A stretch of DNA of 27,591 nt, from positions 1 to 27,591 of the IMG/VR virus record IMGVR_UViG_3300010354_000491, one strand, 5' to 3'. The stretch is from a virus. Below the pieces are notes generated by a model that did not search any database, was not told where the DNA came from, and saw nothing but the letters and a program-made list of their open reading frames with translations. Below, piece after piece: positions 1-27,591 of the stretch. A program made the position numbers and the translations under genes. The stretch's first letter is position 1. Each line of letters starts with the position of its first letter.

Positions 1-80
1 CCCGTGGCACCAGCAGGCCCCATCGCGCCAGTGGCACCCGTAGCACCAGCAGGCCCCATCGCGCCAGTGGCACCCGTAGC
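1..80. repeat. 36-bp tandem repeat in collagen block
   Basis: Bases 9-44 and 45-80 are identical, and bases 1-8 match the end of the unit with one mismatch, so the array continues past the left edge. Each unit encodes twelve residues of Gly-X-Y collagen-like sequence ([12 protein letters not shown] in one register). The identity at DNA level, unlike the diverged hexapeptides elsewhere in the gene, points to recent copy-number change. Confidence 0.85.
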
Positions 81-4800: not shown

Positions 4801-7060
4801 CCGCAATACTGAGATAGTCGCCACTGCCATCAAAATAACCACTTGCGCCGCCGTATTTACTTTGCGTTGTACTAACTTGCGCGTTGCCGTTGGCGGTTAC
4901 AGTAAATACATTGTTACTGTTGTCAGCGAAAGTTGTATTGCCATTACTGCCGTCCATATGCAGCAACAAGCTGACATTGTCGCCATACCTGTCAACCGTT
5001 GGCACGGGGTCGGGGAAGGCATCAGTATTTAGCGTGAAATTGGCCGCGTACCTAGCGACGCCTTTTGTAATGCGAAGCTCATCGATATACCCATCGTAAC
5101 CGGTACCAGCAAAGCCATGCTGGCTACCTACGGCAAATGCCGTTGCTGCGTCTATCATGGTACCATGCGATTCACTCAGCGAGTTAACGCCATTCATGTA
5201 GGTCTTTATCTGTCCTCCAGTCACGGAAATCGCTACATGTGTCCATGTCGCCAGCGGAAGTGTGCCCACAAGGTGTTGCGTGCTGACTCCCGTAGTTGCC
5301 GAGCCCATATGGAACGACATAGCGCCCATTGCGTCAACCCTTAGGGCGTAACTTGGGTAAGTTGAAAAGGGAATACCGTCCTTGACCAGGATACATTGAT
5401 CGGTCGATCTACTGTTTTGATACAGCCAGCATTCCACGGTAAAGACACCGTTAGACAAGTCAAGCGCCAAATCATGTGGAGACAACAGATAATCGCCATT
5501 CCCATCAAATAAGGCACTTCCTTCGCCAAACTTGCTTTGCGCCGTACTAACTTGCGCATTACCAATAGCTGTCACAGCCAATTCTTTTAAGCTGCTGTCA
5601 ATAAAAGTTGTACTGCCACTGCTGCCATCCATGTGCAACAACAGGCTGACATTGCTTGGGTATAGATCAGTCGTTAATACAGGATTGGGGAATGCCGCCG
5701 TAGGTGGAGTAAAGCTTGCGGTGTACCTGGCTACACCTTTGGTAATACGGAAATCATCCATCCGGCCATTGTAGAAACCCCTGTAGATGCATTTGCCAAT
5801 TGTGTTAATAGATAAAGACTGGGTATTGCCAACACTTCCGCCATCAAGAACACCATTCACAAATAACCGGATCGTCCCCGATGCTCGCGTTATTGCAACA
5901 TGTTGCCAGGTATTTGTAGCTACATTACCGCCCTCTAACGTGCTACCGTTCCAGTAGCCGGCGAGCCGACCGCCCAGTAGCGTCATTACCTGCATATTGT
6001 TACCGGTACCGTCTCCCACTATCCCATTGTCACTTGTCGCAGTTGGATAGATCCAGCCTTCAATTGTTACGTCTTCTGTTGACCCAATGGAGATCACAGG
6101 GAATTGCAGGTTATCATTGGAACCATCAAACAGGCCTGCAGCGCCACCGAATCTATATTGTGCGGTGCTAATTTGTGCGCCACCGTCGGCGGTTACAGTC
6201 AACGCATTAATACTGCTGTCAGCAAACGTCGTGCTTCCATTGACACCATCCATGTGTAACAACAGGCTGACATTTTCGCCATACGGATCAGTCGTTGGCC
6301 CTGGCGGGATAGGGTCAAGAAATGCCGCGTTAGGTATGTCGTAACTAGCAGCAAAACCATCTATTATTCTGATGTCGTCGAGGTATCCGTAGAATGTCTG
6401 GCCCGAGGTATGACGTGACTGACCTATGCGCAAGGCGGCGGCGTTGCTATTTACGGTTCTAGAATCGGTAGTCGTAAATAACACTGTTCCGTTAATCGCG
6501 AATCGAATAACATTGCTGTCGTCTCGTGTTAACGAAAAATAATCCCATGTTTGTGCGCCAAACGAATTAGTGGGCGAACCAAGGTTCGTGCCGTTAACAT
6601 AGATAGAATCCGACCTAATTAGCACGCCATTGGTATAATCTCCAAGCTCTAGTATAGTTTGCAGTGACTGGGGAGCACTGTCGAATCGTGCCCAGCCCTG
6701 AATGGAAAATGCTCCAGCGAGAAAAAACAGTGCATTGCCAACTACATCGATATATCCGCCTTGCATCGATGCACTCGCACCACCAAACCTGCTTTGGCTG
6801 GTAGCGATACTGACAGAGCTGACGGGGGTAGCCGTCAGTGCATTTAGACTGCTATCTGTAAACGTTGAACTATTGTCACTGCCATCCATGTGCAGCAACA
6901 AAGATATCTTGCTTAGATCAAAAGTTTCAGGGGCTGCTGGCCAGATCCCAGCCTGCTTGGCTAGCTTCTGCTCATCTTGAAACCACAATCCAGATGCTGC
7001 GTTGCCTGTTGGTGTGCGGATGGAGCCAAGCAATCCGCCGTTAAATCCAAGTAGTGCCAT
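1898..7060 (-). CDS. Giant multi-lectin tail fibre (six LamG modules, discoidin-like domain, C-terminal ConA-like domain)
   Basis: The protein has 1720 residues. Residues 1-45 form an anchor-like N-terminus (LLGFNGGLLG, NAASGLWFQDEQ) shared with the LamG protein at 7495-8253. Six LamG/concanavalin A-like modules follow, each opening with SLLLHM[D/N]G and closing with a D-[DE]-[LF/I]-R-[IV]-[TI] strand, usually followed by K-G-[VI]-A-R-Y; their openings fall near residues 55, 268, 474, 699, 923 and 1288. Between modules five and six, at about 1123-1275, is an F5/8 type C (discoidin)-like domain (WVQMDLGDIYLVGSVVIG, ARYIRFSKG). At about 1490-1720 a different ConA-like domain begins PVLWYDFAD and ends QAWLAAKWGITLS, an ending known from bacterial and phage LamG-type domains. 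Such folds bind glycans, so receptor or surface-polysaccharide binding is the likely role. The gene starts three bases after the assembly-chaperone stop. Domain calls are confident; the ligand is unknown. Confidence 0.9.
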   Translation of the reverse strand: MALLGFNGGLLGSIRTPTGNAASGLWFQDEQKLAKQAGIWPAAPETFDLSKISLLLHMDGSDNSSTFTDSSLNALTATPVSSVSIATSQSRFGGASASMQGGYIDVVGNALFFLAGAFSIQGWARFDSAPQSLQTILELGDYTNGVLIRSDSIYVNGTNLGSPTNSFGAQTWDYFSLTRDDSNVIRFAINGTVLFTTTDSRTVNSNAAALRIGQSRHTSGQTFYGYLDDIRIIDGFAASYDIPNAAFLDPIPPGPTTDPYGENVSLLLHMDGVNGSTTFADSSINALTVTADGGAQISTAQYRFGGAAGLFDGSNDNLQFPVISIGSTEDVTIEGWIYPTATSDNGIVGDGTGNNMQVMTLLGGRLAGYWNGSTLEGGNVATNTWQHVAITRASGTIRLFVNGVLDGGSVGNTQSLSINTIGKCIYRGFYNGRMDDFRITKGVARYTASFTPPTAAFPNPVLTTDLYPSNVSLLLHMDGSSGSTTFIDSSLKELAVTAIGNAQVSTAQSKFGEGSALFDGNGDYLLSPHDLALDLSNGVFTVECWLYQNSRSTDQCILVKDGIPFSTYPSYALRVDAMGAMSFHMGSATTGVSTQHLVGTLPLATWTHVAISVTGGQIKTYMNGVNSLSESHGTMIDAATAFAVGSQHGFAGTGYDGYIDELRITKGVARYAANFTLNTDAFPDPVPTVDRYGDNVSLLLHMDGSNGNTTFADNSNNVFTVTANGNAQVSTTQSKYGGASGYFDGSGDYLSIADDAAFDFGNEDFTIEFWFYLTAGATGGKALISKGTWPSGVASFLVYYGGGSELGFYASTGNGTWDITNLQIQSNPSKEAWHHVAITRSGNVFRGFFNGVKEVEQTYSITLDNNTSPVTIGSGAAGASAINAYIDDLRITKGVARYTANFTPPTTAFLNPTDQYINNVSLLLHMNGSNGSTTFTDSSINTLTVTASGDAQITTTDPKFGTGSLLLDGGSDYITIGPSSALQLGSSDFTVECWVYANGGNSNDGLFTFGDTTSGLAVALESGNWRVSVVGASYFTHTVAATTGVWTHLAVTRYGTALRFFVNGVSAGSVSNSSNFIQDTLKIGYYYSADYAISGKVDEFRVTKGIARYIANFTPPTAPFQGVNPIPIASITYSQSSVYSGVSPANNATMTNGSFVDNRTATNANGTLEWVQMDLGDIYLVGSVVIGTGTSNVPGGWNKSWSENRDIEYSSDGTNWTYAFTTPGIHGSESTPNTYPDNGIYTYPVNFTARYIRFSKGAGGGNWVLISEFYALAPGQIYDPYSDNVSLLLHMDGSNGSTTFTDSSGHAIAVTGYGNAQISTAQSRFGGSSAYFDGSGDYLSTASSLAPFQMGTGDFTVEAFIRPTGSAASSGYKGLIGLEEFDADTLYMLNSTVVWYNSGTAAGAIAVDTWYHVAASRQGTTLRVFLDGVLVNTSTNSNNMTFGRLRVGSNGPSTGEFFQGWIDELRITKGGARYTANFTPPTAPFPNPLPSVPPTPSNPIPALSPVLWYDFADESTVTTSGTAITSVTDKGSRGWALSVGGTSPQYVTGINGLKCLDWGTSPAHANFMYHANNDGTPITIGEVYVVVDAAFGGTASNYAGLLTAHSGNWYVLAVASSLTQDGTGFDQLFINGGTSNKFSGGLFGSPSIDDPAIMQINSSSGNTIVSSSGIQIGNDRGFSSLTRGWSGLIGEYVIFPSVLSPTDRNAVQAWLAAKWGITLS
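2640..6920 (-). repeat. Diverged LamG module array inside the fibre gene
   Basis: The module start codons for LLLHM fall near 6890, 6250, 5632, 4957, 4285 and 3189. This gives module lengths of about 640, 620, 675 and 670 bases, then about 1100 where a discoidin-like domain is inserted. Stretches around the LLLHM and KGVARYTANFTPP segments stay very similar at DNA level, while the loops between differ. Serial duplication with exchange between modules is the simplest explanation. Confidence 0.8.
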
Positions 7061-8790: not shown

Positions 8791-9690
8791 TCAGACGACA
8801 GCAGCGGTTGCGTCCACGTTGGCGAGACGAGCAGCGGCCCTACCGTTGATCAAAGCAAGTCCGCAATACCATTCAACGCGAGTAACCAGAGTGGGCGAAT
8901 CGGTCGCTTCACCAAGGTCACGCACCTGAGGGCCACCGTTCTGCAGACCGGTCAGCAGATCGTTACCGAAGGCCACCACGTAGATGGACTGATCGCTGGC
9001 ATCGCTATCCAGGATAGCAACGTTCTGGTGGTCGCGATCCAGTTCAAGCACCGGAATGCCACCGTAGAACAGTTGCTGATAGCCGAAGTCGTTGCGCTCG
9101 ATGTCAATTTGACCGTTAGCGCGAGCCACCTTGCTCAGGTGACGACGAGCGGACTTGGACATCACAAGGTACTTGGTGCCACCCTGTGCATCCACTGCGT
9201 CAATAGCTTCATCCAGCTTGCCGGTATCCAGAGCGGCGGGGGAAACGCCGTTGGCGATATACTGGCTGGAGCCAGCGGGCAGGCGGTTAGCCAGGCCATC
9301 GAACTCAGCGCCACTGGCGTTGGAGTCACCGTTGATGAACAGGCCCTCGAAAGCCAGGCGCATTGCGCGGGTCTTGGCTTGCACCTGATAGGCGCGAGCC
9401 TCGGGGCCCTCCAGGTCAACGATAGCGCGGTCAACCTTGATGTCACCACCGAACAGCTTCAGCGCTTCGCTGTGCTGCTTGACGGTGGCATAGCTTTCGG
9501 TATAACCAGCGTTAAACGTACGGAAACCCACGTCGCCGAGGGACTCCTCACGCTTCCAGAACAGACCGTTGCCCTGAACTTCACGGAACGGCAGGTTCTG
9601 CAGCAGGGGACCAGCAGCAAGCTCGGTGATAATCGCGAGTTCCTGCGGATTAGTAGAATGCTTCTTGGCTTCAGCAAGAGTTAATGCCAT
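8791..9690 (-). CDS. Major capsid protein (HK97-fold type)
   Basis: A 299-residue protein, short for the family but within range. It starts MALTLAEAKKHS, followed by a helical N-terminal arm. Capsid-like features are the region L-F-G-G-D-I-K-V-D-R-A near residues 78-88, R-A-M-R-L-A-F-E-G-L-F-I-N-G-D-S with F-D-G-L-A-N-R-L near 108-137 (helix, then 'NGD..' and 'EFDGL', typical of small HK97-type capsids), a long helix with K-Y-L-V-M-S-K-S-A-R-R, and a C-terminal beta region R-V-E-W-Y-C-G-L-A-L-I-N-G-R-A-A-A-R-L. The scaffold gene directly upstream supports the call. A terminator lies on each side, and the leader between 9691 and 9823 is long, as expected for a gene needing its own expression level. 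AGGAATC precedes the ATG, though at a short spacing. It lies downstream of the tail genes, which is uncommon. Confidence 0.88.
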   Translation of the reverse strand: MALTLAEAKKHSTNPQELAIITELAAGPLLQNLPFREVQGNGLFWKREESLGDVGFRTFNAGYTESYATVKQHSEALKLFGGDIKVDRAIVDLEGPEARAYQVQAKTRAMRLAFEGLFINGDSNASGAEFDGLANRLPAGSSQYIANGVSPAALDTGKLDEAIDAVDAQGGTKYLVMSKSARRHLSKVARANGQIDIERNDFGYQQLFYGGIPVLELDRDHQNVAILDSDASDQSIYVVAFGNDLLTGLQNGGPQVRDLGEATDSPTLVTRVEWYCGLALINGRAAARLANVDATAAVV

Positions 9691-9878: not shown

Positions 9879-10616
9879 TCAGCCAAATGCCTTCAGGAAC
9901 AGCTCATCACTGCTAAGCGCACTCAGGTCTTCACTGGTCATACCATTCATGTCAGTGCCGCCGTAGCCGATACCAGCACCAGACCCCTTGGAGCCCTTGA
10001 AGAAGGTGCCATAGATTGGATGCGTTTTGAATCCACTCAGGTAGTCTTCAGGGTTGATGCGCCGGCCGGACTCCTTGTCCAGGATCGGCACACCATTGGA
10101 ATCAACAACAGTAATACTGTTGTCGGGTTCCAGGCGGAAGTGGCCACCGATTTGATTGGCTAACATGTCAAAAAATGACACGCCATCTGCCGAATCAGTG
10201 CGACCGCCAGCGGAGAAGAATACCTTCTCCAGTGAATAACGCTTACGGAACTCCAGCAGTTCCTTGTAGGCACCATCCCGCTGCTGAACAGCTTCCGCTG
10301 CCTGCTTGCCGTACTTTTCCTCCAGCAATGCCGTGCGCTCATCGGCCGCAGCCTTTTCACGCGCAGCAATAGCTGCTTCCTCCTGCAGTTTGCGGTATTC
10401 GTCTGGGTTGATTTGCGCAAACTTCTCCAGTTGGGCGCTTTTCTCTTTTACCTCTTTCTCGTAAATCTTGCGCGTTTCACGTTCGGATTTCAGCGCCTTC
10501 AGCAGGTTCTGAACTTCTTCTTCGGAATAGCTGCGATCATCTGCGGCTTCCGTCGCTTTCTGCTCTTCCGTGTTGTCTGCACTCGTCTCAAGTGCATTGT
10601 TGTTGTCTTCGGGCAT
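9879..10616 (-). CDS. Head scaffolding protein
   Basis: A 245-residue protein with the normal architecture of a phage scaffold. Residues 1-30 are acidic and disordered. Residues about 30-130 are strongly charged and helical (E-E-V-Q-N-L-L-K-A-L-K-S-E-R-E-T-R-K, then E-E-A-A-I-A-A-R-E-K-A-A-A-D-E-R), which reads as a coiled coil. The C-terminal third (about 140-215) carries short ordered segments such as F-D-M-L-A-N-Q-I-G-G, P-E-D-Y-L-S-G-F and P-I-Y-G-T-F-F-K-G, followed by a Gly-rich linker and a final helix S-S-D-E-L-F-L-K-A-F-G that could contact the capsid protein. Scaffolds direct procapsid assembly and leave before DNA packaging. No serine protease motif is seen, so it is not an obvious protease-scaffold fusion. 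Position directly upstream of the capsid gene supports the role. Confidence 0.82.
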   Translation of the reverse strand: MPEDNNNALETSADNTEEQKATEAADDRSYSEEEVQNLLKALKSERETRKIYEKEVKEKSAQLEKFAQINPDEYRKLQEEAAIAAREKAAADERTALLEEKYGKQAAEAVQQRDGAYKELLEFRKRYSLEKVFFSAGGRTDSADGVSFFDMLANQIGGHFRLEPDNSITVVDSNGVPILDKESGRRINPEDYLSGFKTHPIYGTFFKGSKGSGAGIGYGGTDMNGMTSEDLSALSSDELFLKAFG

Positions 10617-15815: not shown

Positions 15816-16558
15816 TATATGACTAATCCGAGCTGTATTGACACAGTATACACAGTTCGCTTTATTCCGCTGATGATTTTATTTTCTGCCGTTGCCGATG
15901 GTATACTGATTGGGAAATAGCTACCGGTAAGCGGATATGCCACTATTTGTTGCTCATACCAGGTGCGTATATTATTCCACCCAGCTAAATCGGTTGTACC
16001 CTCCACATCTTTGATTTTGTAAACAGCAAGGGGGCCACTGATATAATGTTGTCCCCCTGGCGTCAACTCCATACTTGGGCCCTCACCATAGGAATCTGGC
16101 GGCTTTATCAGTGTGACCACAGTCGTACCAAGTGTTATCGTGCCAAAATCCGGTAAATCCTCTACGGTCTCCTGCTCTTGTCCACTCTGCAGTACCGCTA
16201 GTGCTTGGTTGGCATCAATTAACTCAACCGTAGCCGACACCCACACGCCGCTCTGCTCGGCTTGCGGTGCACTTGAAAACCAGCATTGAACATTCGTCCA
16301 AGTCTCCCCGCCGAAACCTGTGCCGCTCAGCGTTACTACGCTGCCAACGCCCCCAGAGACCAGGCTATCTTCATCCTGGATGCGGCTATCGCGCCACGCG
16401 TTATAGACGTCAAGTAATTCCAGCCACTCCAGTCCAGTCAGCAGACCACTGACAGACCACTTCCTTGCCGTCAGACCAGTCCTGACATCAGATTCATCAT
16501 AGCCAAATGGCTGCGCCGTCAGTCTTGAAAATTCAACTGTTCCAATTGTGATCGACAT
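15815..16558 (-). CDS. Probable distal tail protein (Dit-like)
   Basis: A 247-residue protein between the tape measure and the hub, the standard site of the distal tail protein in siphoviruses. It opens with a short strand (I-T-I-G-T-V-E-F-S-R-L) and a T-A-R-K-W-S-V-S-G-L-L-T-G-L-E-W-L-E-L-L-D-V-Y-N-A-W-R segment, compatible with the belt-type beta domain plus helix of Dit/tail-tip proteins. A second beta region at about 130-245 ends T-V-Y-T-V-S-I-Q-L-G-L-V-I. Both junctions are TAATG overlaps, so it is translationally coupled to tape measure and hub. No motif proves the family; the call depends on position, size and the two-domain beta pattern. Confidence 0.6.
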   Translation of the reverse strand: MSITIGTVEFSRLTAQPFGYDESDVRTGLTARKWSVSGLLTGLEWLELLDVYNAWRDSRIQDEDSLVSGGVGSVVTLSGTGFGGETWTNVQCWFSSAPQAEQSGVWVSATVELIDANQALAVLQSGQEQETVEDLPDFGTITLGTTVVTLIKPPDSYGEGPSMELTPGGQHYISGPLAVYKIKDVEGTTDLAGWNNIRTWYEQQIVAYPLTGSYFPISIPSATAENKIISGIKRTVYTVSIQLGLVI

Positions 16559-19500
16559 TACAGCCTATGATTCAGGGCCTCCAGGATCGCAGCGCCGCCA
16601 CCGCTGCTTCTTAGCTTTACGTTTACATTCCAGTCCTTTTCTGTTAAGTCCTGGACGGCGCGACTTAGTTTACCGATCTGAACTGCCTGCTGTGCTTGAA
16701 CATTGGCAAGTTGGCCCAGGTCACCATTACTCTTACCGGCGGCAATCGCGCCAATATAGCGAGTTAGTTTGTTGACAAATCGATCCTGCCCAGAAGAGGC
16801 TGGGTTGACGCTTTTCACCCTTGGTTTTACATTAGCCTGAGGGATTGCCATTTGGCTGATCACATTAGCCGGAATGACGATACCGGAACTGGGTGCTCTC
16901 CACATCGCATTTTGAGGCTTATTGATCATACTGAAATTGCCAGACCTTGACAGGAAGCCTTCTTGGCCCAGTTCGTTCACCTTGTACATCAATCCACTGG
17001 AGACAGGCCCACCGGCCCACCTTGCCCTGGATTGACCGATATTTACGGTTACATTGCCAAGGTTTTTTATGGCCAGTAGCGCTTCTTTTAATTCATTCGC
17101 AGAAACAGTAGCATTTTTCAATTGTTCGTTGACACCGCTAAGTTTCTCTTGGAGTTGACTAGCATTGGTTACATTCTCTTGGGGCACTAGCGTGCCGATG
17201 CCGCCAGCGGCAAGGGCCTTTAGTTGCCCAATAGTGTTGACGATAGCTTGCAATTGCGGATTGACGGCAGATAAAGCTGATCCGAGTTCAGCGGCACCCA
17301 GTCCAGCACTAAAAGCCGCCTTCACGCTGCCAACAGAGGCAGCAAGGCCTTGCAGTTTAGTATTAGTGCCTTGTATTTGCGTATCAAGTTGACCGACCTG
17401 GCTGGCGCCAAGGCCTGAGCTTAAGGCGCCAGACAAGCCTTTAGCAGAAGCAGTGGTGTTCTGTATTGCAGTATTAACGGCTCCTATTTTTGTCTCAAGT
17501 TCACCAACCTTGATGATGTTTTCCTGTGGTAACAGTGAATTAAGATCCATAGTTTTTCCGCCTACTGTAATTGTCGATCTTTCCTGCAGGGCTTGGTTGC
17601 CAGCTTGGATTTGGGCAGTTTCGCTGGTTCTTGCCTGGATGATTTGATTGATTGCTGCAATCTCTGCATTTGTTCTTTGGGCGATCAGCGCAGCTAACTC
17701 GTTTTCTTGTGGTATTTTAGAATCTTCGCGTTGCTGCTGCTCAAGCTGAATGGCTTCTCTTTGAGCCTGAAGTCTTTCCTGGTCGGCCCGCTTCTGTTTT
17801 TCGATGTTAGCAATCTGTTCTTGCGCCAGTTCGCGTTCCAGTTGCGCTCTTGCACGCAGGCCTTCTTCTCCTCCCTTTTTAGAGTCCGCAATCAGTCGAT
17901 TCCTTTCTAGTTTGGCAAGTTCTTTTTGTGCTGGCCCAAGTTCCTGTAGTTTTGAAATTTGTGAATCGTAATACCTGTCGACTTTTTGCTGTTGGGCGTC
18001 AATATTTCGCAGTGCTTGCTGCGAATTGCGATCCTCGGCCGCTCGCACTGCGTCCATCCTGGATATCTGTTTTTCTATTAGTTGAATTCTCAGGTTTGAT
18101 GTCGTTTGCGCTCCATACTGTGCGAGTCGCTCCAGGTTCTCGATTTGCGTTGCGACTTGATCAGCGCCAGCAGTCCTGACATCAATGGTGGCTTGCTGTC
18201 CCTGGAGTGCCTCTATCAGTCTTTTTATGTTATTCAAGCTTGCGGGAATATTGCCAGCCTGGGCTCCTTGCTGAAATAACTGCACGTAAATTGCTGCTTT
18301 TTTGCCATTAAGTTGATCAACGCGTTGCTGCGCTGCAATCAAGCCTTTTGTTACAACTTGCAATTCTGGCGCACTTATATCGAGCCCTATTCTTGCTTCC
18401 TCCAGTTTTTTGACCACCAGCTCCGCGTTGGCAACGGAGTTGGTGAAAGTACCAAGGTTTATGCCTTGCACCAATGCTGCGGCACTATAAAGCGCCTGTA
18501 GAGCCGCTGCTTTGTTTCCAAGTTCTTCGTACTTGACGCTTGCCTCGGCTACCGACTTGTTTTGCGCATTCCACTTTTCAGGCTGCAATGCTGGGTCGAT
18601 AGACAGCAGTCCAGCCCTCGCATCTTTCAGCTTTTCTTCTAGGTTGGTAGTTGTATTAGCCGTTTTTGACTGTTCGAGTGAAAGATTGCCCGAAGAAGCG
18701 GCAACAGCATCTAGTGCTGACTTTTGTTTGTTGAATTCACTTGTTACCCGAGCCGCTGTTGCCTCCAATGGTCTTAGCTTCTTTTCACCTATTTCGTAAG
18801 CCTTAAGGCCATCAGGTGAATCAGCTACAGCCTTTCTCAGATCACTTATTTGCTTTTTTGTATCAGCCAAGGCCTGTGCTGTTGGAGTATTTTTGCGTGG
18901 TGCATTTTCCTTTGCCCTAATCTTCTCTAATTCCTTTTGTTTTGCTTCCAGCTTGCCTAGCTGTGCTACTTGGTTGCGCAATGACTGGGGGATTTGCGAC
19001 AGTTGTGATTTGTATGTGGCAACTTGATTGTTAAGTGCCTGTTGCTTTTGGTCCAGTGCTTTTACGCCAGCCAGGGCCGCAGTATAGCCAGCCTGTACCT
19101 TGGGTGCCAGTCCATCCAGTTGCTGTTGCTGTTGCGGCGTGAACGTAGCGGCGCTTCCACCTTTACTGCCACCCTTGCCGCTTTCTGCTGCCTTCTTGGC
19201 TGCAATCAGCTTTTCCTGTTCCGCTACCTGCTTTTTGAGTTCCGATGTTAGCAAGCCAACCGCTGTTGCTTGCTCTATCGTGCTTGTTTTTGTTGCCTCA
19301 AGTGCATCTGTAAATTTTTGTTGCGCCACCTCCGAGCCACTGCCAAGTCCAGCTATAGCGACGCCAATACCTACGATCGTTCCAACCACAGCGCCGCCGG
19401 TGGCGGTCACAGCGGCAAACGGACCACCAAGCGCACCAAGGCCTGCGCCGATAGCTGCTCCAGTTCCAGCAAATCCACCTACGGTGGCTGCGAACGCACC

Positions 19501-22500
19501 AGCAAAGTCGTACCACTTCTTTTCGGCAGCTTTCGTGTCACCAGAGAACCTGGCCAGGCCACTGCTTATTGAGCCAAACAGGCCACTGCCAACATCCGCG
19601 ATTCCTTTTATCAGGAAGCCAAACCTTTCCCACGCCAGTGCCAGTCCAGTTGCTGGTTTTTGTGCCTCTACACTGCCGCCCTTTAATTCCTGCAGTGCGC
19701 TAGTTAGTTCTTTTACTTTTATCTTGCTTTCTTCTTGTATTGCCCTTGATTGCTCTGTTACCTTATTATATGCGGACTGTGCTGCGCCAACCGCTAAAAA
19801 GGCAATACCAAGTACCCCCAGTTCGGAAGCTAAGGTAACAATACCCTTCCCAAGCAGGCCAAGTAAGCCCCTGCCTGCCTTCAGGCTACCGCCAAGGCCA
19901 GCGCTTACTATTCCGCCGAACCTGGAAGTCGAGGCGGACGCTTTTTCTTGGGCGGCGGTATAATCCCTTATTGCGTTGGTGTTAGCATCAACTGCATCCG
20001 CATTAGCCAGTATCTGTTGGCCCGCCAGTTGGCGCCTCTCCAGTAAATTCCTTTCAGTGGCCAGTGCCTTCTGCAGAGCTTGTTGGTCTTCTTTTTGCTG
20101 CTGCGGGTCAAGTGACCTAAAGACATTATCAGGGTCACCAAGTCTCTTGATCTGGCCGCGCACCGTACGCAGATCCCTATTAAGTGATACGATGCCATCT
20201 TGTGCTAATTTTGTTGAATTCTTCAGTGCCTTGTTTTCGTCTGATAGCTGCTTGATCCCTGCGGCGGCACGTTCAGCGGCGCTGGACTGAGCCGTTAAAC
20301 CTTCTGTGTATCTGGATCCCTCCTTGGCGCTTGCGGCAATTTGCGCGACGCGATCTCTTTCCTGTTTCTCAAGCTTCTTTAGTTTTTTTTGTGCTTCAGC
20401 TCTAGCGGCAAGTGATCGGTCGGTGCCGCCACCCTGATCAGGCTTGGTACGGTCTAATGTATCCCTCAGTAGCTGCTGCCTTTCTTTCAGCGATTTTATG
20501 GTAGCATCGGTTGCAACTTTTGAGTTGATCTCATCTGTTATTGCTTGTCTGAAGTAGCGATTTGATATTTGCTGGACCGTTCTTACTTCTCGACCGAGGC
20601 CGCTATAGCCTTTGGTTTGCGCATCCAGAGCGCTTGTGTCCACTTTGGCTGCATAGGCATCTCTCAGGGATTTGCGTAAATCACGCAGTGCTGCTTGCTG
20701 TGTCCTGATGGTGCTGTTAAGGGCCGCTGGGTCTGTTGCTCCACCACTGGCCTGGATGGATTGGTTCTGACTCAGCTCCTTCCTTAGCGTCCTCTGCCTT
20801 TCCCTCAAGGTTTTTATGCTGTTGTCCAGCGCGGTATCGTCTACCTTGATGCCAAAAGAGCTTTTTAATGATTTGCGCAAATTGCTTAGTTGCGAATCTA
20901 GCGCAGGTATTCTGCTCTCTATTTTGGCTAATTCCCTGTCGTATTTGCTGGGACCAAAGGAAGCTGGCAGACTTGCTATCTGCGATTGCAGCGCACCTTG
21001 CTTACTGATCAGATCCTGTCTTCGATTGAATACCCTTCTGTAGCTAGCGATCAGTTTTTTCTGGTTTCCCGATTGCGCCTTGGTCGCCCTTGCGTCTGAC
21101 GCAATCACCGCGTCCGCTGTACTCGCAGCTTGGGCTGCCAGACCTGTCAGTCCTGCAGATGCTGATTCAGCGGATGATTTTATACCACCAAAAAGACCTG
21201 CTTTTATCTTGCTATTCAGGTTTTGCTTTAATTGATCAGTTGTTTGCCCTATGGATAGTACTCTTTTCTCGAAATCGTCTAACTGGTCAAATGTTTTGCC
21301 AGCGAATAACCCCTTCAGTTCAATACCGCTAGCTTTGTTCTGCACATCACGCAGTGGTCTCAGTATAAACCCAGCGAGACCTTTCGAGAATATATCCTGA
21401 CTACTCCTGAACGGAGCCGCTAACTTACCCAGCAGCGCAAGGCCAGCCAGCTCTGCAGCACCAGGAATGCTGAGCAGGGCGTTTGCAAATTGCAATATTG
21501 GACCAATAGCTTTTGCAAATGCTTCGATGCCAGATAATACGGTTTCAGCCAGATTGACGACGCTTCCGCCTATTTGGTTGAAGATACCCACCAGACTTTT
21601 CGTGCCCTCCAGCTCTATTATTCTGGTAATAAAGTCCGTGACACTGGCTTGAGCCCTGAGGAACAGTATGACCAGCGGTTCGGCCAGCTTGGCAAACTTC
21701 TCCAGGTTTAACTGATTCAGTGATCCCAGGTTTGCTTGTACCTGCGTAATTGTGACATTGCCAGCCTCCAGGGCGGCAATAGCGGAAGCGCCACTGCTGC
21801 CAAGCTTACCAAACAGCAGCTCCGATTTCGAGATTAAAGGTATCAGCCTTATCAGTTCTTGCGATGTAATCTTGCCTGCTTTTACCAGCGCCTCCAGTTC
21901 GGCCGTCGTACCATTAACTGCCAAGCCAGCCGTCTTTGCTGCTTTCGCTAAATCAATCTTGAATGCAGGATCAGCTTCTGATATCTGCTGAGTTAATTCT
22001 TCCGCCTGCAGCTTACCTTTAGCAAATGCCTGGATAACACCATTTAATACCCGACGTGATTGGTCGGCATTTAATCCAAATGCCGCAAATCGGCTGCTCA
22101 GTGATTCGACAACACTGGAAACATCGCCCAGATTGCCGCCGGAACTTAAAATAACAGGTGCCAGCTTCTGGAAGCCTTCTCTGGTTGTAGTGATACTGGA
22201 GCCAAGACCAAGTGCAATCCTGCGGGATTCACTCAGGGCTTGGTTGGCACCACTGGCACCAGCGCCAATTGCCTCAAAGCTAAGGGCAAAGCCCTGCAGG
22301 TCGGCCAGTGCCTTACTTGCGGCTGTTATTGGTGCAACCAGTTGGCCAGCAACAATTCCAATGCTTTGGAAGATTGCAACAATATCCGTCAGTCCTCGAC
22401 CGGCCTTCAGGACACCGCCAAGATCAATACCAGCGGCAAATCTGTCAAAAGCATTGCCACTGGCCGCCTCCAACAGACGCACCTGTTGAGTTAAATCTGA

Positions 22501-22920
22501 GACCTTCTGTTGCGCTAAGGTGAAGTCCTTGGTGGGGATTTGACCGAATATTCCACCGCCAGATGCCTTTGCACTTGAACCAAAAGCTGCTATTGCATCC
22601 CTGTCCTGTTTTGCTTTGTTTAACTGCTGTCGGACACTTGTTAAGCTGTCAGCCTGTACCTTATTTGCCTTTTGATAAGAAGCAGTCAGCTTATCAACTT
22701 CAGATCTGACACTCTTGGTTATTGCCTCCAGCTCTTGTCCGCCGCCAGGTGCCTTTGCCAGTCGCACCTGAACCAGCTTCTCTACCTTGCCACCCAGCAT
22801 TTGGTTGGCCATGTCGCCGGCTTTTTTTGAGCCATTGACATATTCAGTGAACAGCGTCTGGAATTCACGGGCAGCTTGCTCTGTCTTGAATGATACATTA
22901 AAGTCAAGCTTGCCGGACAT
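16558..22920 (-). CDS. Tape measure protein (2120 aa)
   Basis: The longest gene in the window. The N-terminal region (about 180-400) carries the conserved tape-measure domain: G-G-N-L-G-D-V-S-S-V-V-E-S-L, L-N-G-V-I-Q-A-F-A-K-G-K-L-Q-A-E-E-L-T-Q-Q-I and A-G-L-A-V-N-G-T-T-A-E-L-E. Long charged coiled-coil stretches cover about 640-1000 and 1590-1760. Two hydrophobic segments, about 1025-1057 and 1137-1190, are rich in Gly, Ala, Val and Ile; tape measures insert such segments in the host membrane during DNA entry. Near 1797 and 1912 the motif L-[LV]-P-Q-E-N marks an internal duplication. The C-terminus (K-V-N-E-L-G-Q-E-G-F-L) is typical. At roughly 1.5 angstrom per residue the tail would be near 320 nm. 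No lysozyme or peptidase domain is recognised. A promoter-like element lies 25 bases upstream. Confidence 0.95.
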   Translation of the reverse strand: MSGKLDFNVSFKTEQAAREFQTLFTEYVNGSKKAGDMANQMLGGKVEKLVQVRLAKAPGGGQELEAITKSVRSEVDKLTASYQKANKVQADSLTSVRQQLNKAKQDRDAIAAFGSSAKASGGGIFGQIPTKDFTLAQQKVSDLTQQVRLLEAASGNAFDRFAAGIDLGGVLKAGRGLTDIVAIFQSIGIVAGQLVAPITAASKALADLQGFALSFEAIGAGASGANQALSESRRIALGLGSSITTTREGFQKLAPVILSSGGNLGDVSSVVESLSSRFAAFGLNADQSRRVLNGVIQAFAKGKLQAEELTQQISEADPAFKIDLAKAAKTAGLAVNGTTAELEALVKAGKITSQELIRLIPLISKSELLFGKLGSSGASAIAALEAGNVTITQVQANLGSLNQLNLEKFAKLAEPLVILFLRAQASVTDFITRIIELEGTKSLVGIFNQIGGSVVNLAETVLSGIEAFAKAIGPILQFANALLSIPGAAELAGLALLGKLAAPFRSSQDIFSKGLAGFILRPLRDVQNKASGIELKGLFAGKTFDQLDDFEKRVLSIGQTTDQLKQNLNSKIKAGLFGGIKSSAESASAGLTGLAAQAASTADAVIASDARATKAQSGNQKKLIASYRRVFNRRQDLISKQGALQSQIASLPASFGPSKYDRELAKIESRIPALDSQLSNLRKSLKSSFGIKVDDTALDNSIKTLRERQRTLRKELSQNQSIQASGGATDPAALNSTIRTQQAALRDLRKSLRDAYAAKVDTSALDAQTKGYSGLGREVRTVQQISNRYFRQAITDEINSKVATDATIKSLKERQQLLRDTLDRTKPDQGGGTDRSLAARAEAQKKLKKLEKQERDRVAQIAASAKEGSRYTEGLTAQSSAAERAAAGIKQLSDENKALKNSTKLAQDGIVSLNRDLRTVRGQIKRLGDPDNVFRSLDPQQQKEDQQALQKALATERNLLERRQLAGQQILANADAVDANTNAIRDYTAAQEKASASTSRFGGIVSAGLGGSLKAGRGLLGLLGKGIVTLASELGVLGIAFLAVGAAQSAYNKVTEQSRAIQEESKIKVKELTSALQELKGGSVEAQKPATGLALAWERFGFLIKGIADVGSGLFGSISSGLARFSGDTKAAEKKWYDFAGAFAATVGGFAGTGAAIGAGLGALGGPFAAVTATGGAVVGTIVGIGVAIAGLGSGSEVAQQKFTDALEATKTSTIEQATAVGLLTSELKKQVAEQEKLIAAKKAAESGKGGSKGGSAATFTPQQQQQLDGLAPKVQAGYTAALAGVKALDQKQQALNNQVATYKSQLSQIPQSLRNQVAQLGKLEAKQKELEKIRAKENAPRKNTPTAQALADTKKQISDLRKAVADSPDGLKAYEIGEKKLRPLEATAARVTSEFNKQKSALDAVAASSGNLSLEQSKTANTTTNLEEKLKDARAGLLSIDPALQPEKWNAQNKSVAEASVKYEELGNKAAALQALYSAAALVQGINLGTFTNSVANAELVVKKLEEARIGLDISAPELQVVTKGLIAAQQRVDQLNGKKAAIYVQLFQQGAQAGNIPASLNNIKRLIEALQGQQATIDVRTAGADQVATQIENLERLAQYGAQTTSNLRIQLIEKQISRMDAVRAAEDRNSQQALRNIDAQQQKVDRYYDSQISKLQELGPAQKELAKLERNRLIADSKKGGEEGLRARAQLERELAQEQIANIEKQKRADQERLQAQREAIQLEQQQREDSKIPQENELAALIAQRTNAEIAAINQIIQARTSETAQIQAGNQALQERSTITVGGKTMDLNSLLPQENIIKVGELETKIGAVNTAIQNTTASAKGLSGALSSGLGASQVGQLDTQIQGTNTKLQGLAASVGSVKAAFSAGLGAAELGSALSAVNPQLQAIVNTIGQLKALAAGGIGTLVPQENVTNASQLQEKLSGVNEQLKNATVSANELKEALLAIKNLGNVTVNIGQSRARWAGGPVSSGLMYKVNELGQEGFLSRSGNFSMINKPQNAMWRAPSSGIVIPANVISQMAIPQANVKPRVKSVNPASSGQDRFVNKLTRYIGAIAAGKSNGDLGQLANVQAQQAVQIGKLSRAVQDLTEKDWNVNVKLRSSGGGAAILEALNHRL

Positions 22921-23027: not shown

Positions 23028-23639
23028 TCAGTTCACGTCAAGGTCAATGCGATATGCGCCGTAACCCTGCACGGTGGCCTCCCAGGACACGATAGAACCG
23101 GCTTCAATCGATTCCGTGTACCCAGTGAGGGTGCCGTAGCCATAGACACACTCATCGGTGCCCGTGGGGCCCACACGTGCGAACTTAACGCGCAGTGCAT
23201 CTGCCACCGTGTTCTGCTCCGTCAGGCGCAGGATCTGATAGCCAGCATCCTTGAAGTCAGCCACGCCAGCCAGGGAGATGCTCCAGGTCTTGGACGTAGG
23301 CAGGCTCAGGTTGAAACCACCAGTCTCAGAGTCGTAGGTCACGACATCTTCGGAGTTGGTATCAGTCTCCAGGGCGGCGTTAGTCAGACCATACAGTCGC
23401 ACAACGTCATCAGTACCGTCCATTGCGAACGGGGTTGCTGCAACCGTAAAGATGCCGCCGGTGTAGCTAACCGCTGCGCTGGGCGAAACCAGATTGGCAT
23501 TACTGGCGCCAAGGTTCACGAAGGCAGCAGAGCTAGTGCCAACACCAGTGGAAACACCGGTGAATGCACTGTCGACTTCAGCGGCTGCCACGGGAATGAT
23601 GTAAACATCATAACCGAATGCGGTAGAAATGTTTGCCAT
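23028..23639 (-). CDS. Major tail tube protein
   Basis: A 203-residue protein directly upstream of the tape measure unit. It starts MANISTAFGYDVYIIPV and has a mainly beta pattern. The C-terminal strand group, Y-G-Y-G-T-L-T-G-Y-T-E-S-I-E-A-G-S-I-V-S-W-E-A-T-V-Q-G-Y-G, is characteristic of siphophage tube proteins (the G-x-[IL]-x-x-[WF]-x-x-x-[FLV]-x-G-x-G type of ending). Two segments, T-W-S-I-S-L-A-G-V-A-D-F and G-Y-Q-I-L-R-L-T-E-Q, fit the tube fold helix and strand order. Tube subunits stack in hexameric rings to form the tail shaft. A strong terminator follows and an element-rich 166-base leader precedes it, consistent with high, separate expression. The N-terminal third is unusually rich in Ala, Ser, Val and Gly. 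Confidence 0.85.
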   Translation of the reverse strand: MANISTAFGYDVYIIPVAAAEVDSAFTGVSTGVGTSSAAFVNLGASNANLVSPSAAVSYTGGIFTVAATPFAMDGTDDVVRLYGLTNAALETDTNSEDVVTYDSETGGFNLSLPTSKTWSISLAGVADFKDAGYQILRLTEQNTVADALRVKFARVGPTGTDECVYGYGTLTGYTESIEAGSIVSWEATVQGYGAYRIDLDVN

Positions 23640-23805: not shown

Positions 23806-24252
23806 TCAGGCGGTAATCAGGGCGCTGTCGGGGATTAAAGCCAATGTTTGCACCAAACTGGTCAATTCATTGGGTGCAGGTACAACATTTATAGACCTAG
23901 AGCCACTGAACAGTTGAACGATCCTGGCGGCCGCACTGGTCATCGTTACACCAGTAGCCTCTGGCCATACGACCAGATACACCTGGTAGGTGATTAAAGG
24001 GTCACTGGCATCAGTAATATAGTCCTTGCGGCTAACAATTCCAGTGTCGTGGATCAATACCTCAAGCCCAGACTGGTTTTTCAATGCAGGTAATGCCTGC
24101 CCTGGGGTTACGATGCTGATGGAATCCAGTACGGTGTCATCTTTAGCAAACGTATATTGGCCCACATATGACATGAATTCCGTATCACCCGTCAAGGTGT
24201 TATAAATATCCAGTGGTGATGTTACCCTGAGTTGTGCCACTAATTTTACCAA
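23806..24252 (-). CDS. Probable tail terminator protein
   Basis: A protein of up to 148 residues directly upstream of the tail tube gene. The sequence is compatible with a tail terminator/completion protein: an N-terminal helix (P-L-D-I-Y-N-T-L), then a strand pattern with S-I-S-I-V-T-P, S-G-L-E-V-L-I-H-D, I-T-Y-Q-V-Y-L-V-V-W-P and a helix A-A-A-R-I-V-Q-L-F. Terminators cap the tail at its head-proximal end. No ATG is available near the 5' end: a TAA closes the frame four codons before 24252, leaving TTG at 24252 or GTG at 24240 as the only upstream start codons. The first 53 bases overlap the 66-residue gene in another frame. Initiation at TTG or GTG by coupling is most likely, a frameshift from the upstream frame less so. 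Role is inferred from position and fold pattern. Confidence 0.65.
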   Translation of the reverse strand: MVKLVAQLRVTSPLDIYNTLTGDTEFMSYVGQYTFAKDDTVLDSISIVTPGQALPALKNQSGLEVLIHDTGIVSRKDYITDASDPLITYQVYLVVWPEATGVTMTSAAARIVQLFSGSRSINVVPAPNELTSLVQTLALIPDSALITA

Positions 24253-24400: not shown

Positions 24401-24496
24401 AGTTACCTAGTGATTCGGCCGCAAAATTTGACCTGAAATACGCCAGCGGACGTTGTATTCGCTGTACTATCTATGCACCGTCGCGTAAGGGATTAC

Positions 24497-24829
24497 ATGT
24501 ACAACATGGAAGCGTTGACGCACAAAGAAGCAAAACAAAAATGGAGGCAATCAATCAAAGATAGTTGGAACAATTGCTGCGCTTATTGCGGTCAGCCGCC
24601 AATCGATGATTCAAGTTTGACACTTGATCATGTAAAAGCAAAATGCAAGGGCGGCGAAGACCTTAGCGCCAATATTGTGCCCGCCGACAGGTCATGCAAC
24701 CTGGATAAAGGGTCTGCCGATTGGCGTGAATGGTTCAGGCGGCAACCATTCTATCAAAAATGGCGCGAAAGTCGCATTGATCACTGGTTAGAACATGGAA
24801 TTGTCTTGCCAGAGGATTACGAATGGTAA
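24497..24829 (+). CDS. HNH homing-type endonuclease
   Basis: The only confident plus-strand gene. The 110-residue product has an HNH core: a zinc pair C-A-Y-C-G near residue 28, the catalytic L-T-L-D-H-V-K-A-K near 41, G-G-E-D-L-S-A-N-I-V-P-A and a second ligand C-N-L near 66, then a D-W-R-E-W-F-R-R-Q-P-F tail common to phage HNH proteins. Such free-standing nucleases cut one DNA site and spread between phage genomes. The start chosen is ATG at 24497, since AAGGG ends five bases before it; ATG at 24473 in the same frame would add eight residues, and ATG at 24506 would remove three. It lies between tail genes on the opposite strand and probably moved in independently. Confidence 0.9.
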   Translation: MYNMEALTHKEAKQKWRQSIKDSWNNCCAYCGQPPIDDSSLTLDHVKAKCKGGEDLSANIVPADRSCNLDKGSADWREWFRRQPFYQKWRESRIDHWLEHGIVLPEDYEW

Positions 24830-24884: not shown

Positions 24885-25517
24885 TCAGACCAAGATATCA
24901 AAATAGCAATTTTCATTGGCAACAACTTTTGTCTTTATCTCCGGCATCCGTACCCTGTAGACTTTTTGCTTGTCGTCAGTCATGCTGATCGTCTTGTTTG
25001 ATGCGCCCTCCAGAGCAATTAACATGCCGTTACAACCGGTATCATTGAATTCTGGCGCTAAAATGATTGCATTTTCGCCAATCAGACATAAATGTTCTGG
25101 TACTTTGCCCTTGTCTGCATTTTCCATCAGTTCCTTGTAGACAAATAGCCCCCATCGTGGGAACCTGCCACTGCTGATTAGTTCTTTTGCTGCTGCACCA
25201 TACTTCCCTGAGATGCTGTCCTTTTCCCCATCCATTGGGTAAATATAAAACTCATCAATAGCAAACGGTCGTTTCCGTTTCTTTGCATCACGATTTACCT
25301 CTGCTTGTTGTGCCACAAGCTGCGCAATAGGAATTTCTTGTTCGTGCAGTTCCTGGTGTCTTATCTTTCTGCTGTTTACAATTGCTTCTATCACATATTC
25401 ATACGGCAGCAACCAGTAGTTCTGGTGCGTGAACTCCGGGTCACCGCAAAATACTCTTTTCAGCTTCCAGTAGTATTCGTCAAACGGTATTACTCCGTCT
25501 TCGCCTTTGCCCTCGGC
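24885..25517 (-). CDS. Tail assembly chaperone, -1 frameshift extension (GT-like)
   Basis: This frame has no ATG, GTG or TTG between its upstream stop and its conserved start, but it is entered by a -1 slip at A AAA AAG (25517-25523) in the preceding gene. Read from the slip it gives 210 residues, so the fusion would be about 404 residues. The coding signal starts at once: G-V-I-P-F-D-E-Y-Y-W-K-L, then F-T-H-Q-N-Y-W-L-L-P-Y-E-Y-V-I-E-A-I, like the T part of siphophage tail chaperones (Tyr/Trp before a Leu-Pro, then an amphipathic helix). Helices around 65-100 and a more beta-like end follow, closing C-Y-F-D-I-L-V. The fused form binds the tape measure during tail assembly in known phages. A TTG-started 175-residue product from 25412 is the alternative but would lose the most typical segment. 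Confidence 0.75.
   Translation of the reverse strand, partial: AEGKGEDGVIPFDEYYWKLKRVFCGDPEFTHQNYWLLPYEYVIEAIVNSRKIRHQELHEQEIPIAQLVAQQAEVNRDAKKRKRPFAIDEFYIYPMDGEKDSISGKYGAAAKELISSGRFPRWGLFVYKELMENADKGKVPEHLCLIGENAIILAPEFNDTGCNGMLIALEGASNKTISMTDDKQKVYRVRMPEIKTKVVANENCYFDILV
24890..24912. repeat. Imperfect direct repeat flanking the HNH gene, right copy
   Basis: Partner of the copy at 24370-24392, with 18 of 23 bases shared. It lies within the last ten codons of the chaperone extension frame. Confidence 0.5.
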
Positions 25518-26098
25518 TTTTTTATCGTTTTTTGCAGCTCCGTTTCTTGTTCCGCTTCATCCGGTGGCTCATCACTTGCCATTGCATTGTTTAAGCGTTC
25601 CATTGATCGGCTTTCTTCATCGCGATATAATTCCACCAGCCCTGTAATCAGGTCAGGGTGCAATGCCATTACATCTGCTACATCCATGTCAGGATCAACG
25701 CGATACTTCACCAGGCATGTTGCAGCCAGTATCTCCTCCTTCGATTGCAGTAATGCCAGGTTCTTCAGCAGTTCGTTCAATTGCTCAGTATATTGCTGCT
25801 CGATTTCATATTCTTCTGGTCCAACAGCGCCTGACATGAACCGCAGACACATCTGGTACGCATCTTCCAGGCCCATTGATTGGTCCTTGGATACCTGTCG
25901 CGCCAGGCCAATGATCAGTCCAGGTGTTGAATCATAATTTACTGCTTGCTGGACAAATGCCTTTTCACCACTCGTCAGGTAGCCGCGTCGTTCGATTTCA
26001 ATCTTTCCGCTTTCTTCTGATCCGATCTGCTCAATGATTGGCTTCAGCTTGGGTTGTACAACAAATGGCAGCCCTTTTGTCTTGACTTTGGAATCCAT
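25490..26098 (-). CDS. Tail assembly chaperone, 0-frame product (G-like)
   Basis: The 0-frame product has 202 residues. After an N-terminus of about 35 residues comes the segment R-R-G-Y-L-T-S-G-E-K-A-F-V-Q-Q-A. The body is helical (G-L-E-D-A-Y-Q-M-C-L-R-F-M, E-I-E-Q-Q-Y-T-E-Q-L-N-E-L-L-K-N-L), followed by I-L-A-A-T-C-L-V-K-Y-R-V with A-D-V-M-A-L-H-P-D-L-I-T-G-L-V-E-L-Y-R-D-E, similar to the end of G-type chaperones. An acidic linker precedes a basic tail I-K-K-P-R-A-K-A-K-T-E. Codons ATA AAA AAG form an in-phase slippery heptamer at residues 192-194, eleven codons before the stop, so most ribosomes would end here and some would continue in the -1 frame. This is the usual layout for tail chaperones. 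Here it lies upstream of terminator and tube genes rather than directly before the tape measure. Confidence 0.72.
   Translation of the reverse strand: MDSKVKTKGLPFVVQPKLKPIIEQIGSEESGKIEIERRGYLTSGEKAFVQQAVNYDSTPGLIIGLARQVSKDQSMGLEDAYQMCLRFMSGAVGPEEYEIEQQYTEQLNELLKNLALLQSKEEILAATCLVKYRVDPDMDVADVMALHPDLITGLVELYRDEESRSMERLNNAMASDEPPDEAEQETELQKTIKKPRAKAKTE
25517..25523 (-). other. Programmed -1 frameshift site AAAAAAG
   Basis: Minus-strand AAAAAAG is read as A AAA AAG in the 0 frame of the gene starting at 26098 (ATA begins at 25525, exactly 191 codons after the start). After a -1 slip the next codon is GCC at 25517-25515, in phase with the frame ending at 24885. A weak hairpin (ACGG and CCGT with a 7-base loop) lies downstream. 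The neighbouring AAAAAAC is not in phase. Confidence 0.75.
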
Positions 26099-26145: not shown

Positions 26146-26628
26146 TCAATTACTGTTTAGTTGATTCAGTATTATCGTATAGTAGTCCGGTGGTGTTAAT
26201 CCATAACCACTCGTTAACGCTGCTTCAATAAATGGCCTGCCAGGAATAAATACCTTGTTGTTTGAACCGTATACATTGATATAACCGCCATAATGCACCA
26301 AATTTGCATATGGTACGTCATAACTGATTATGATATCACCCGAATCGTTTAATGTAATATTTTTTGACCTCAGTAAATTGCCACTTTCAACAATATCAGA
26401 TCCGCCAAATGCGCTGCCCGTAATCGCCTTGTCCAAATTTGCAGATATCGCCGCTACGATATCCGTTAATCCGTCCCTGAGACCAGCCCTGATACTAGTG
26501 ACATATCTGCTGATGTCAATATCACTTGAACTTGATCCTGAATTGTACTTTATGTTACAATTCGCACCAAATTTCATATTGCTTGCCTTGAACCCAATAT
26601 CGCTATTTGTTAACTTGAAACCAGACAT
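26146..26628 (-). CDS. HK97-gp10-like neck / tail completion protein
   Basis: A 160-residue protein. ATG at 26628 was chosen over a GTG one codon upstream. A helical region, I-R-A-G-L-R-D-G-L-T-D-I-V-A-A-I-S-A-N-L-D-K, is followed by L-L-R-S-K-N-I-T-L and then the hallmark D-V-P-Y-A-N-L-V-H-Y-G-G-Y-I, with P-G-R-P-F-I-E-A-A-L toward the C-terminus. The 'Y-A-x-x-V-H-Y-G' and '[AG]-R-P-F' pair is the signature of HK97 gp10-like proteins, which act at the head-tail joint or in tail completion. The first 40 residues are polar and rich in Ser and Asn. Ten bases separate it from the upstream gene, and the chaperone unit begins 47 bases later. The call is well supported. Confidence 0.8.
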   Translation of the reverse strand: MSGFKLTNSDIGFKASNMKFGANCNIKYNSGSSSSDIDISRYVTSIRAGLRDGLTDIVAAISANLDKAITGSAFGGSDIVESGNLLRSKNITLNDSGDIIISYDVPYANLVHYGGYINVYGSNNKVFIPGRPFIEAALTSGYGLTPPDYYTIILNQLNSN

Positions 26629-26638
26629 CACATACCCA

Positions 26639-27163
26639 TCAATTTAAGATCTCACTGATCCTGAGAACAATAGGTAACCCCCTGATCTCAGATGCAATGA
26701 TCTGGTCAATCCCTAAATCACCATATACACCACTGCATTCTATGATAATACCAGTCATCCTGGAACTTGATCCGAATTTTATAGATCCCATCACACCAGG
26801 TCTGATATATTCAGGTGCACTGGTGTTCGCTAAATATTCACTGCTGTTCATTAAGTCATCATACACCAGCTCATCTGGTGGTGTTGATGGGTTGTAGATG
26901 TCATATTCATTGCTGACATCAGAAATACCTAACATGTACCCCCTGTATAAATATCCAGTACCCGATGCACCACTTGATGGTAACTTGTATTCTCGGCCGC
27001 CAGTATCTGTACTGGTGCCCTGGGAGCGCTTCAAAAATAAACTGATGACATGTTGATTGGTTTGCGGGTCCACAAATCGCCCATCTTCAATTATTGGTGC
27101 GCTGCTTTCCGTAACACTGAAATAGCTGTTTACATATTCACTGAGCACACTGCTGGTTGCCAT
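26639..27163 (-). CDS. Unrecognised neck-region structural protein (174 aa)
   Basis: A 174-residue protein with the start taken as ATG at 27163, since the alternative TTG at 27178 gives only five more residues and the promoter-like element sits 25 bases from the ATG. An N-terminal helix (S-V-L-S-E-Y-V-N-S-Y-F-S-V) precedes a polar, mostly beta body with H-V-I-S-L-F-L-K-R, a Gly/Ser/Thr-rich loop near residues 50-70, G-Y-L-Y-R-G-Y-M-L-G, and a C-terminal strand set M-T-G-I-I-I-E-C-S-G-V-Y-G and L-P-I-V-L-R-I-S-E-I-L. I do not recognise the family. Its place before the HK97-gp10-like gene suggests a head-tail connector or stopper; this is an inference from gene order only. Confidence 0.6.
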   Translation of the reverse strand: MATSSVLSEYVNSYFSVTESSAPIIEDGRFVDPQTNQHVISLFLKRSQGTSTDTGGREYKLPSSGASGTGYLYRGYMLGISDVSNEYDIYNPSTPPDELVYDDLMNSSEYLANTSAPEYIRPGVMGSIKFGSSSRMTGIIIECSGVYGDLGIDQIIASEIRGLPIVLRISEILN

Positions 27164-27187
27164 CTCAGGCGCTGTCAAATAGCCTAA

Positions 27188-27376: not shown

Positions 27377-27591
27377 TTGAATTGGGACCGATCAGGCGGT
27401 TAGTTAGCTTAGCGTACCAGTTTTTTTGAAAAATTTTGTGGGGGGGTTGATAGGAAGTGCGTTTCCGGCATTCGGGGTGGGGGGGGGAGCCCAGGAAGAA
27501 GGCCGAATGTCCGACAAAATCTCCGGCAAGTACCAAGCCCGAATGTACTCGCAACTAACTGGATTGAGTTATAGTTATCGAACGCGGTGAG
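27377..27591. other. Edge region with G-tracts and no certain gene
   Basis: On the plus strand are runs of seven G (27440-27446 region) and nine G (27479-27487 region), plus seven T at 27421-27427. Several short frames are open on both strands. The most protein-like is a plus-strand frame ending with a stop at 27588-27590; from ATG at 27507 it gives 27 residues (MSDKISGKYQARMYSQ and so on), and from TTG at 27426 about 54 residues with a Gly-rich start. A minus-strand frame with a TTG start at 27554 overlaps the zinc-ribbon gene and is proline-rich. None has a ribosome binding site, and homopolymer length errors would change the frames. Confidence 0.35.

Follow-up and report, generated by a model that had tools for sequence, protein, structure and literature searches.

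The nearest counterparts of the gene considered here are the tail assembly chaperone genes of long-tailed phages. The slip of lambda gpG/gpGT (Levin 1993; Xu 2004, 2013, 2014, as cited in PMC5009743) is the textbook conserved -1 slip of the morphogenesis cluster of such phages (PMC5009743). According to the same account, G binds the tape measure protein and T binds the major tail subunit, the ratio is about 30 to 1, and neither gpG nor gpGT occurs in mature virions. By comparing these genes with a gene on the minus strand of the window (the whole of a 27,591-base IMG/VR virus record), both likenesses and differences become apparent. Like gpG/gpGT of lambda and the equivalents in N15, phi80 and LLS, the gene has two parts, and a -1 slip is predicted at an X XXY YYZ-type heptamer shortly before the 0-frame ends; the long form would add a domain that lacks a start of its own, and the products are expected outside the virion. 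Unlike the lambda pair, its first part (part 1) has no detectable homology to gpG, its second part (part 2) is longer (210 vs 144 aa) with a beta-rich C-terminal half, and the gene is situated upstream of the genes for the major tail protein and in the tail-terminator position, whereas the order in lambda is V-G-T-H, with the pair between major tail and tape measure.

The virus is akin to phages that infect marine cyanobacteria. Its gene is directly homologous to S-CBS2 gp015/gp016, S-CRES1 gp72/gp73, S-CRES3 gp79/gp80 and P-SS2 ORF 064/065, which share its frame relation and have an in-phase heptamer. The records of the S-CBS2, S-CRES and P-SS2 phages list them as two separate genes, mostly hypothetical and without a frameshift note, although the second gene is annotated as 'tail assembly protein' in the S-CRES phages. 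In all of these records the second gene starts late, inside the domain, and the start of PHROG 34388 matches that of the P-SS2 ORF. The P-SS2 and S-LBS1 papers mention neither a frameshift nor a chaperone, and a literature search returned no paper linking S-CBS2, PSS2 and frameshift; the sole paper combining P-SS2 with frameshift concerns gene prediction.

Reading frames and slip site in the window

The features of the gene and its surroundings are listed in Table 1. The heptamer is separated from the 0-frame TAA by 8 codons, or by 11 if ATA AAA AAG is counted, and it is in the latter sense that the earlier note had placed it eleven codons before the stop. Position 25556 marks the opening of the -1 frame, and the 210 open residues that had been claimed for it are borne out. 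The trans-frame product would be 404 aa long, and its junction would read ...IKK-AEGKGEDGVIPFDEYYWKLKRVFCGDPEF... The first ATG, GTG or TTG of the -1 frame is the TTG at 25412, which is 35 codons past the slip and beyond the IPFDEYYWKLK..CGDPEF block, so that the absence of a standard start before the conserved segment was correctly described. Mechanical ORF calling indeed yielded the truncated, TTG-started ORF (25412..24885) that had been foreseen. The 18 genes of the window, comprising 7761 codons, contain 25 in-phase X XXY YYZ heptamers. Only behind the one described here does the -1 frame stay open for long, namely 210 codons as against 47 for the next best of the 25, so that chance does not account for it.

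Table 1. Coordinates of the two-part gene, its neighbours and other features of the window
Feature	Position	Strand	Remarks
0-frame gene, gpG-like part (normal product)	26098..25490	-	202 codons/202 aa; ATG at 26098, TAA at 25490; 89-sequence alignment
Slippery heptamer A AAA AAG	25523..25517	-	in phase with 0-frame; context ACG AT[A AAA AAG] CCG
-1 frame part (T-like)	25523..24885	-	210 codons past the slip plus stop at 24887-24885
Conserved block IPFDEYYWKLKRVFCGDPEF, start of -1 part	25490..25431	-	precedes every start codon of that frame
Stretch aligned to Phage_tail_T / lambda gpT-like (IAQLVAQQAEVNRDAKK..DEFYIYP)	25328..25212	-	sub-threshold, always this place
Second gene in head-tail connector position, upstream	27178..26639	-	no family match; synteny
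Tail completion / Neck1-like connector, upstream neighbour	26631..26146	-	phrog_5; synteny
HNH endonuclease right behind the gene	24473..24829	+ (opposite strand)	present in 98/99 loci
Gene in tail-terminator position	24252..23806	-	no family match; position
Major tail protein	23639..23028	-	phrog_38654; Phage_tail_2
Tape measure protein	22920..16558	-	TMP_3
Major capsid protein (GP7/SU10 type) and scaffold-like gene	8791-9690 and 9879-10616	-	downstream of the tail genes
1720-aa repeat protein	1898-7060	-	many LLLHMDGSNGSTTFTDSS-type repeat units; LamG/concanavalin-like look
Collagen-like GATG-repeat protein	3-1433		near the 1720-aa repeat protein
G and T runs (ggggggg, gggggggggg, ttttttt)	27420-27490		near contig end; may be low-quality sequence

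Relatives were collected by tblastn with the joined protein, which matched S-CBS2, S-CRES1-3 and P-SS2, and by scanning IMG/VR with alignments of part 2 and of part 1. The resulting set comprises 99 non-redundant loci including the window, the 98 others being S-CBS2, S-CRES1, S-CRES3, P-SS2 and IMG/VR contigs. In every one of the 99 loci, part 2 is read in the -1 frame with respect to part 1. No relative of part 2 was found in bacterial genome contigs.

Relationships and neighbourhood of the two-part gene

The earlier note had described the second frame as chaperone-like from its very beginning, a wording that proved overstated. When both parts were searched with HMMs against tail chaperone families, part 1 matched none and part 2 gave matches only below threshold. 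In fact, part 1 has no significant match to any known family; the Phage_TAC_2 profile (PF06894, lambda gpG) did not match it in 12 records, and in an hhalign comparison its profile showed no likeness to that of the lambda G family (P 0.71). The AlphaFold model of part 1 (mean pLDDT 88.9) consists of an N-terminal beta hairpin and helices. In BFVD, the best named match of related function is with Xylella phage Sano, namely its 'Pre-tape measure frameshift protein G' (E 0.074, prob 0.69). Several tail assembly chaperones of mycobacteriophages come next, at E values near 1 to 3; these neighbours of a predicted model are suggestive only. Nothing in the PDB resembled the part-1 fold at E<=0.001, and the prophage protein YqbN (3klu), which ranked ninth, was too weak a fold match to use. 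By sequence, the PDB held no match for part 2 and no useful one for part 1.

Part 2, whose model (pLDDT 87.9) has a helical first half and a beta-rich second half, belongs with phrog_34388, a group of unknown function (E 2.5e-37 for the window; 92/92 members match). The phrog_34388 profile begins only at residue 45 of part 2, without the first ~44 residues, which include the most conserved block; most likely PHROG 34388 is truncated, its members having been called from a late start after the frameshift was missed. Phage_tail_T (PF06223) matched 17 of the 92 part-2 sequences at E<=0.1, with a best E of 0.0012, and wherever positions were shown the matches fell on one stretch, about 22-61 of the 73 profile positions. 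Similarly, phrog_5297 'tail protein' was matched by 12 of the 92 sequences, at best with an E of 1.6e-4. When 48 whole records (1.38 Mb) were searched in six frames, the seven Phage_tail_T matches, compared by hand with the part-2 locations, were all inside part 2, which makes up ~2% of the bases. None of the 48 records reached the curated Pfam cut-off (25.9 bits), and 6 of 14 control genomes also matched, mostly below the cut-off. By hhalign, the part-2 alignment gave a weak match to 20 more diverse T proteins (P 0.0046, probability 7.6%), covering the same stretch as the Pfam matches, and none to eight lambda-type T proteins. In addition, phrog_337 is reached both by part 2 of P-SS2 (at an E of only 0.078) and by lambda gpT. 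Taken together, these similarities make it plausible that part 2 is distantly akin to gpT, in the sense of kinship and not of demonstrated membership in the family.

The gene is set among the tail morphogenesis genes of a long-tailed phage, with connector, major tail and tape measure genes around it. Wherever a contig shows it, the order is connector, connector, frameshifted gene, HNH endonuclease (reversed), terminator position, major tail and tape measure, and in some loci a small gene like S-CBS2 gp20 precedes the tape measure. In every locus where the terminator-position and major tail genes were found, the frameshifted gene is upstream of them, in departure from the usual, though not strictly defining, G/GT order. 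In the window only 107 nt separate the major tail gene from the tape measure gene, so the usual slot is empty and holds no G/GT pair. In P-SS2, the block from the connectors to the terminator position, with the frameshifted gene and the HNH gene, stands apart from the major tail and tape measure genes, as fibre genes spanning ~18 kb intervene.

Although HNH endonucleases are often mobile, the one behind the frameshifted gene occupies a strikingly fixed place (98/99 loci), and it might serve packaging or hold the block together. Its P-SS2 counterpart (50% identical over 104 aa) is unannotated in the record and lies between ORF 065 and ORF 066, at 4822-5133 of locus L196 (GQ334450, about 35821-36132, minus strand). 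Elsewhere in the window, the capsid and scaffold-like genes follow the tail genes, the reverse of the usual head-then-tail order, and the 1720-aa repeat protein and the GATG-repeat protein are probably tail fibres.

Another finding concerns the virion of P-SS2. Table 2 of PMC2784084 reports peptides for ORFs 061, 062, 063 and for ORFs 066, 067, 068 and 069. ORFs 064 and 065, which correspond to the two ORFs of the frameshifted gene (34537-35211 and 35232-35765), are not listed, and we take this to mean that the products of the P-SS2 homologue were not detected in the virion. Their absence is what would be expected of a chaperone, because gpG and gpGT are likewise missing from mature virions.

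Based on the results presented above, the gene is very likely a gpG/gpGT-type tail assembly chaperone of a cyanosiphophage. A chaperone is the best explanation because the gene is two-part, -1 frameshifted and apparently non-virion, and stands in a siphophage neck-tail cluster; position, two-part design and virion absence in P-SS2 thus support the earlier suggestion that the locus follows the G/GT logic of siphophages. An improbable reading is that the frameshift is programmed while the products act otherwise, as a head-tail connector, a scaffold or another non-virion morphogenesis factor with a long form. It would suit a gene that adjoins connector genes and is not between major tail and tape measure, whose part 1 is without a known family and whose link to gpT through part 2 is below threshold. 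It is at odds with the precedent of gpG/gpGT for a conserved -1 slip in such clusters, with the fact that the Phage_tail_T matches of part 2 all occur in one place, and with the lack of any other candidate beside the tape measure in the window.

The slip very probably fixes the proportion in which two helper proteins for tail building are produced. Most ribosomes would read the 0-frame to its stop at 25490 and release the short chaperone of 202 aa. In a minority, set by a presumed slip rate, both tRNAs would shift back by one base on A AAA AAG and pair anew (from AAA AAG to AAA AAA); these ribosomes would pass the stop unread and continue through the -1 part of 210 residues, so that the protein reaches 404 residues. 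If the lambda system is a guide, the numerous short copies may coat the tape measure protein, a few long copies may use their added part to recruit the major tail protein, and both forms would leave before the tail is finished.

Conservation of the slippery site among relatives

An in-phase X XXY YYZ heptamer is present inside the ORF overlap in 98 of the 99 loci, as opposed to the ~2.9 expected by chance from the background rate in the remainder of these genes. With one site counted for each of the 98 loci, namely the first suitable one, 51 are A AAA AAG, 37 G GGA AAG, 9 G GGA AAA and 1 A AAA AAA. The sole locus without such a heptamer (L045) is nested in a G GGA AAG clade and has G GAA AAG; in Escherichia phage LLS, the same GGAAAAG is annotated as the place of the -1 slip in G/GT. 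On a quick tree of the joined protein, the heptamer type was switched at least 13 times and never lost. The KK or GK dipeptide at the slip site always has the slippery spelling, compared with 6 of 108 KK and 0 of 56 GK elsewhere in the same genes. Moreover, in a close relative (L002, 98% identical, with 32 differences in 940 bases), an A to G change at -7 breaks a nearby out-of-phase A run but leaves the in-phase heptamer untouched. A TAA or TAG immediately follows the heptamer in 45 of the 98 loci. To judge from these comparisons, the slip site is under selection.

Around the slip site, folding of the RNA downstream of the heptamer is only mildly better than that of shuffled sequence (mean z -0.3 to -0.9, broad), and 60-nt windows along the 99 loci revealed no clear conserved stem-loop or pseudoknot as a strong common stimulator; such a downstream structure is usual for slips of this type but not required. 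Similarly, inspection of the sites by eye revealed no clear shared Shine-Dalgarno-like stimulator upstream of the heptamer.

The earlier note had named as counter-evidence homologues whose second frame carries its own ATG upstream of the conserved segment, or relatives that have lost the heptamer but kept both frames. In 90 of the 99 loci, the stretch between the point where the -1 frame opens and the conserved W-x-L-K block is free of ATG, GTG and TTG, and only three (L064, L077 and L111) have an ATG there; with L045 carrying the site annotated in LLS, no loss of the slip site was seen. These counts bear directly on the idea of two separate genes, the second being translated either from a start of its own, be it the TTG at 25412 or some non-standard codon, or by ribosomes that re-initiate once past the 0-frame stop. 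Published annotations do split the gene, mechanical calling does use the TTG at 25412, and the -1 frame contains ATA codons (25490). Nevertheless, the most conserved block lies 5' of any start codon, the nine-tenths of relatives noted above offer no start before it, and a heptamer that would be useless for re-initiation is yet kept in all, which makes this arrangement very improbable. Slippage of RNA polymerase instead of the ribosome, as might be imagined at the A-rich site of half of the family, is still harder to uphold, since the run has no more than 6-7 A, a long run is absent from the members with G GGA AAG or G GGA AAA, and every heptamer keeps the codon phase. A sequencing or assembly error or a broken gene, conceivable for a metagenomic contig with a homopolymer A run at the junction, is refuted by the relatives, as the same -1 relation recurs in 99 independent loci including four isolate genomes and in many of these the A run is replaced by G GGA AAG.

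The programmed -1 frameshift is therefore near certain to be real on comparative grounds. In silico, frameshifting is close to certain because the -1 relation holds in every locus, the heptamer occurs in 98 where about 3 would be expected, and its types switch but stay slippery.

Implications for cyanosiphophages

The gene represents a new, sequence-divergent family of the known G/GT kind in an unusual gene position. It also seems reasonably probable, although with less assurance than the chaperone role itself, that the phages resembling P-SS2 and S-CBS2 possess a sequence-novel G/GT class of cyanosiphophages, in which the gene travels with the neck-terminator block (nearly always together with the reversed HNH gene) and not with the genes for the major tail and tape measure proteins, its presumed partners, and in which the long form carries an extra beta-rich domain. 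If this is true, the usual rule of looking just upstream of the tape measure would miss this chaperone, and a tail chaperone gene would have become uncoupled from the tape measure. A function is thereby proposed for a gene pair that is annotated as two genes, mostly hypothetical, in several cyanophage isolates and that is present in about a hundred environmental phages. In addition, a widespread truncated gene call, that of PHROG 34388 without the first ~45 residues of the domain, is corrected. Finally, the family provides a natural data set of selected slippery sites in phages of cyanobacteria.
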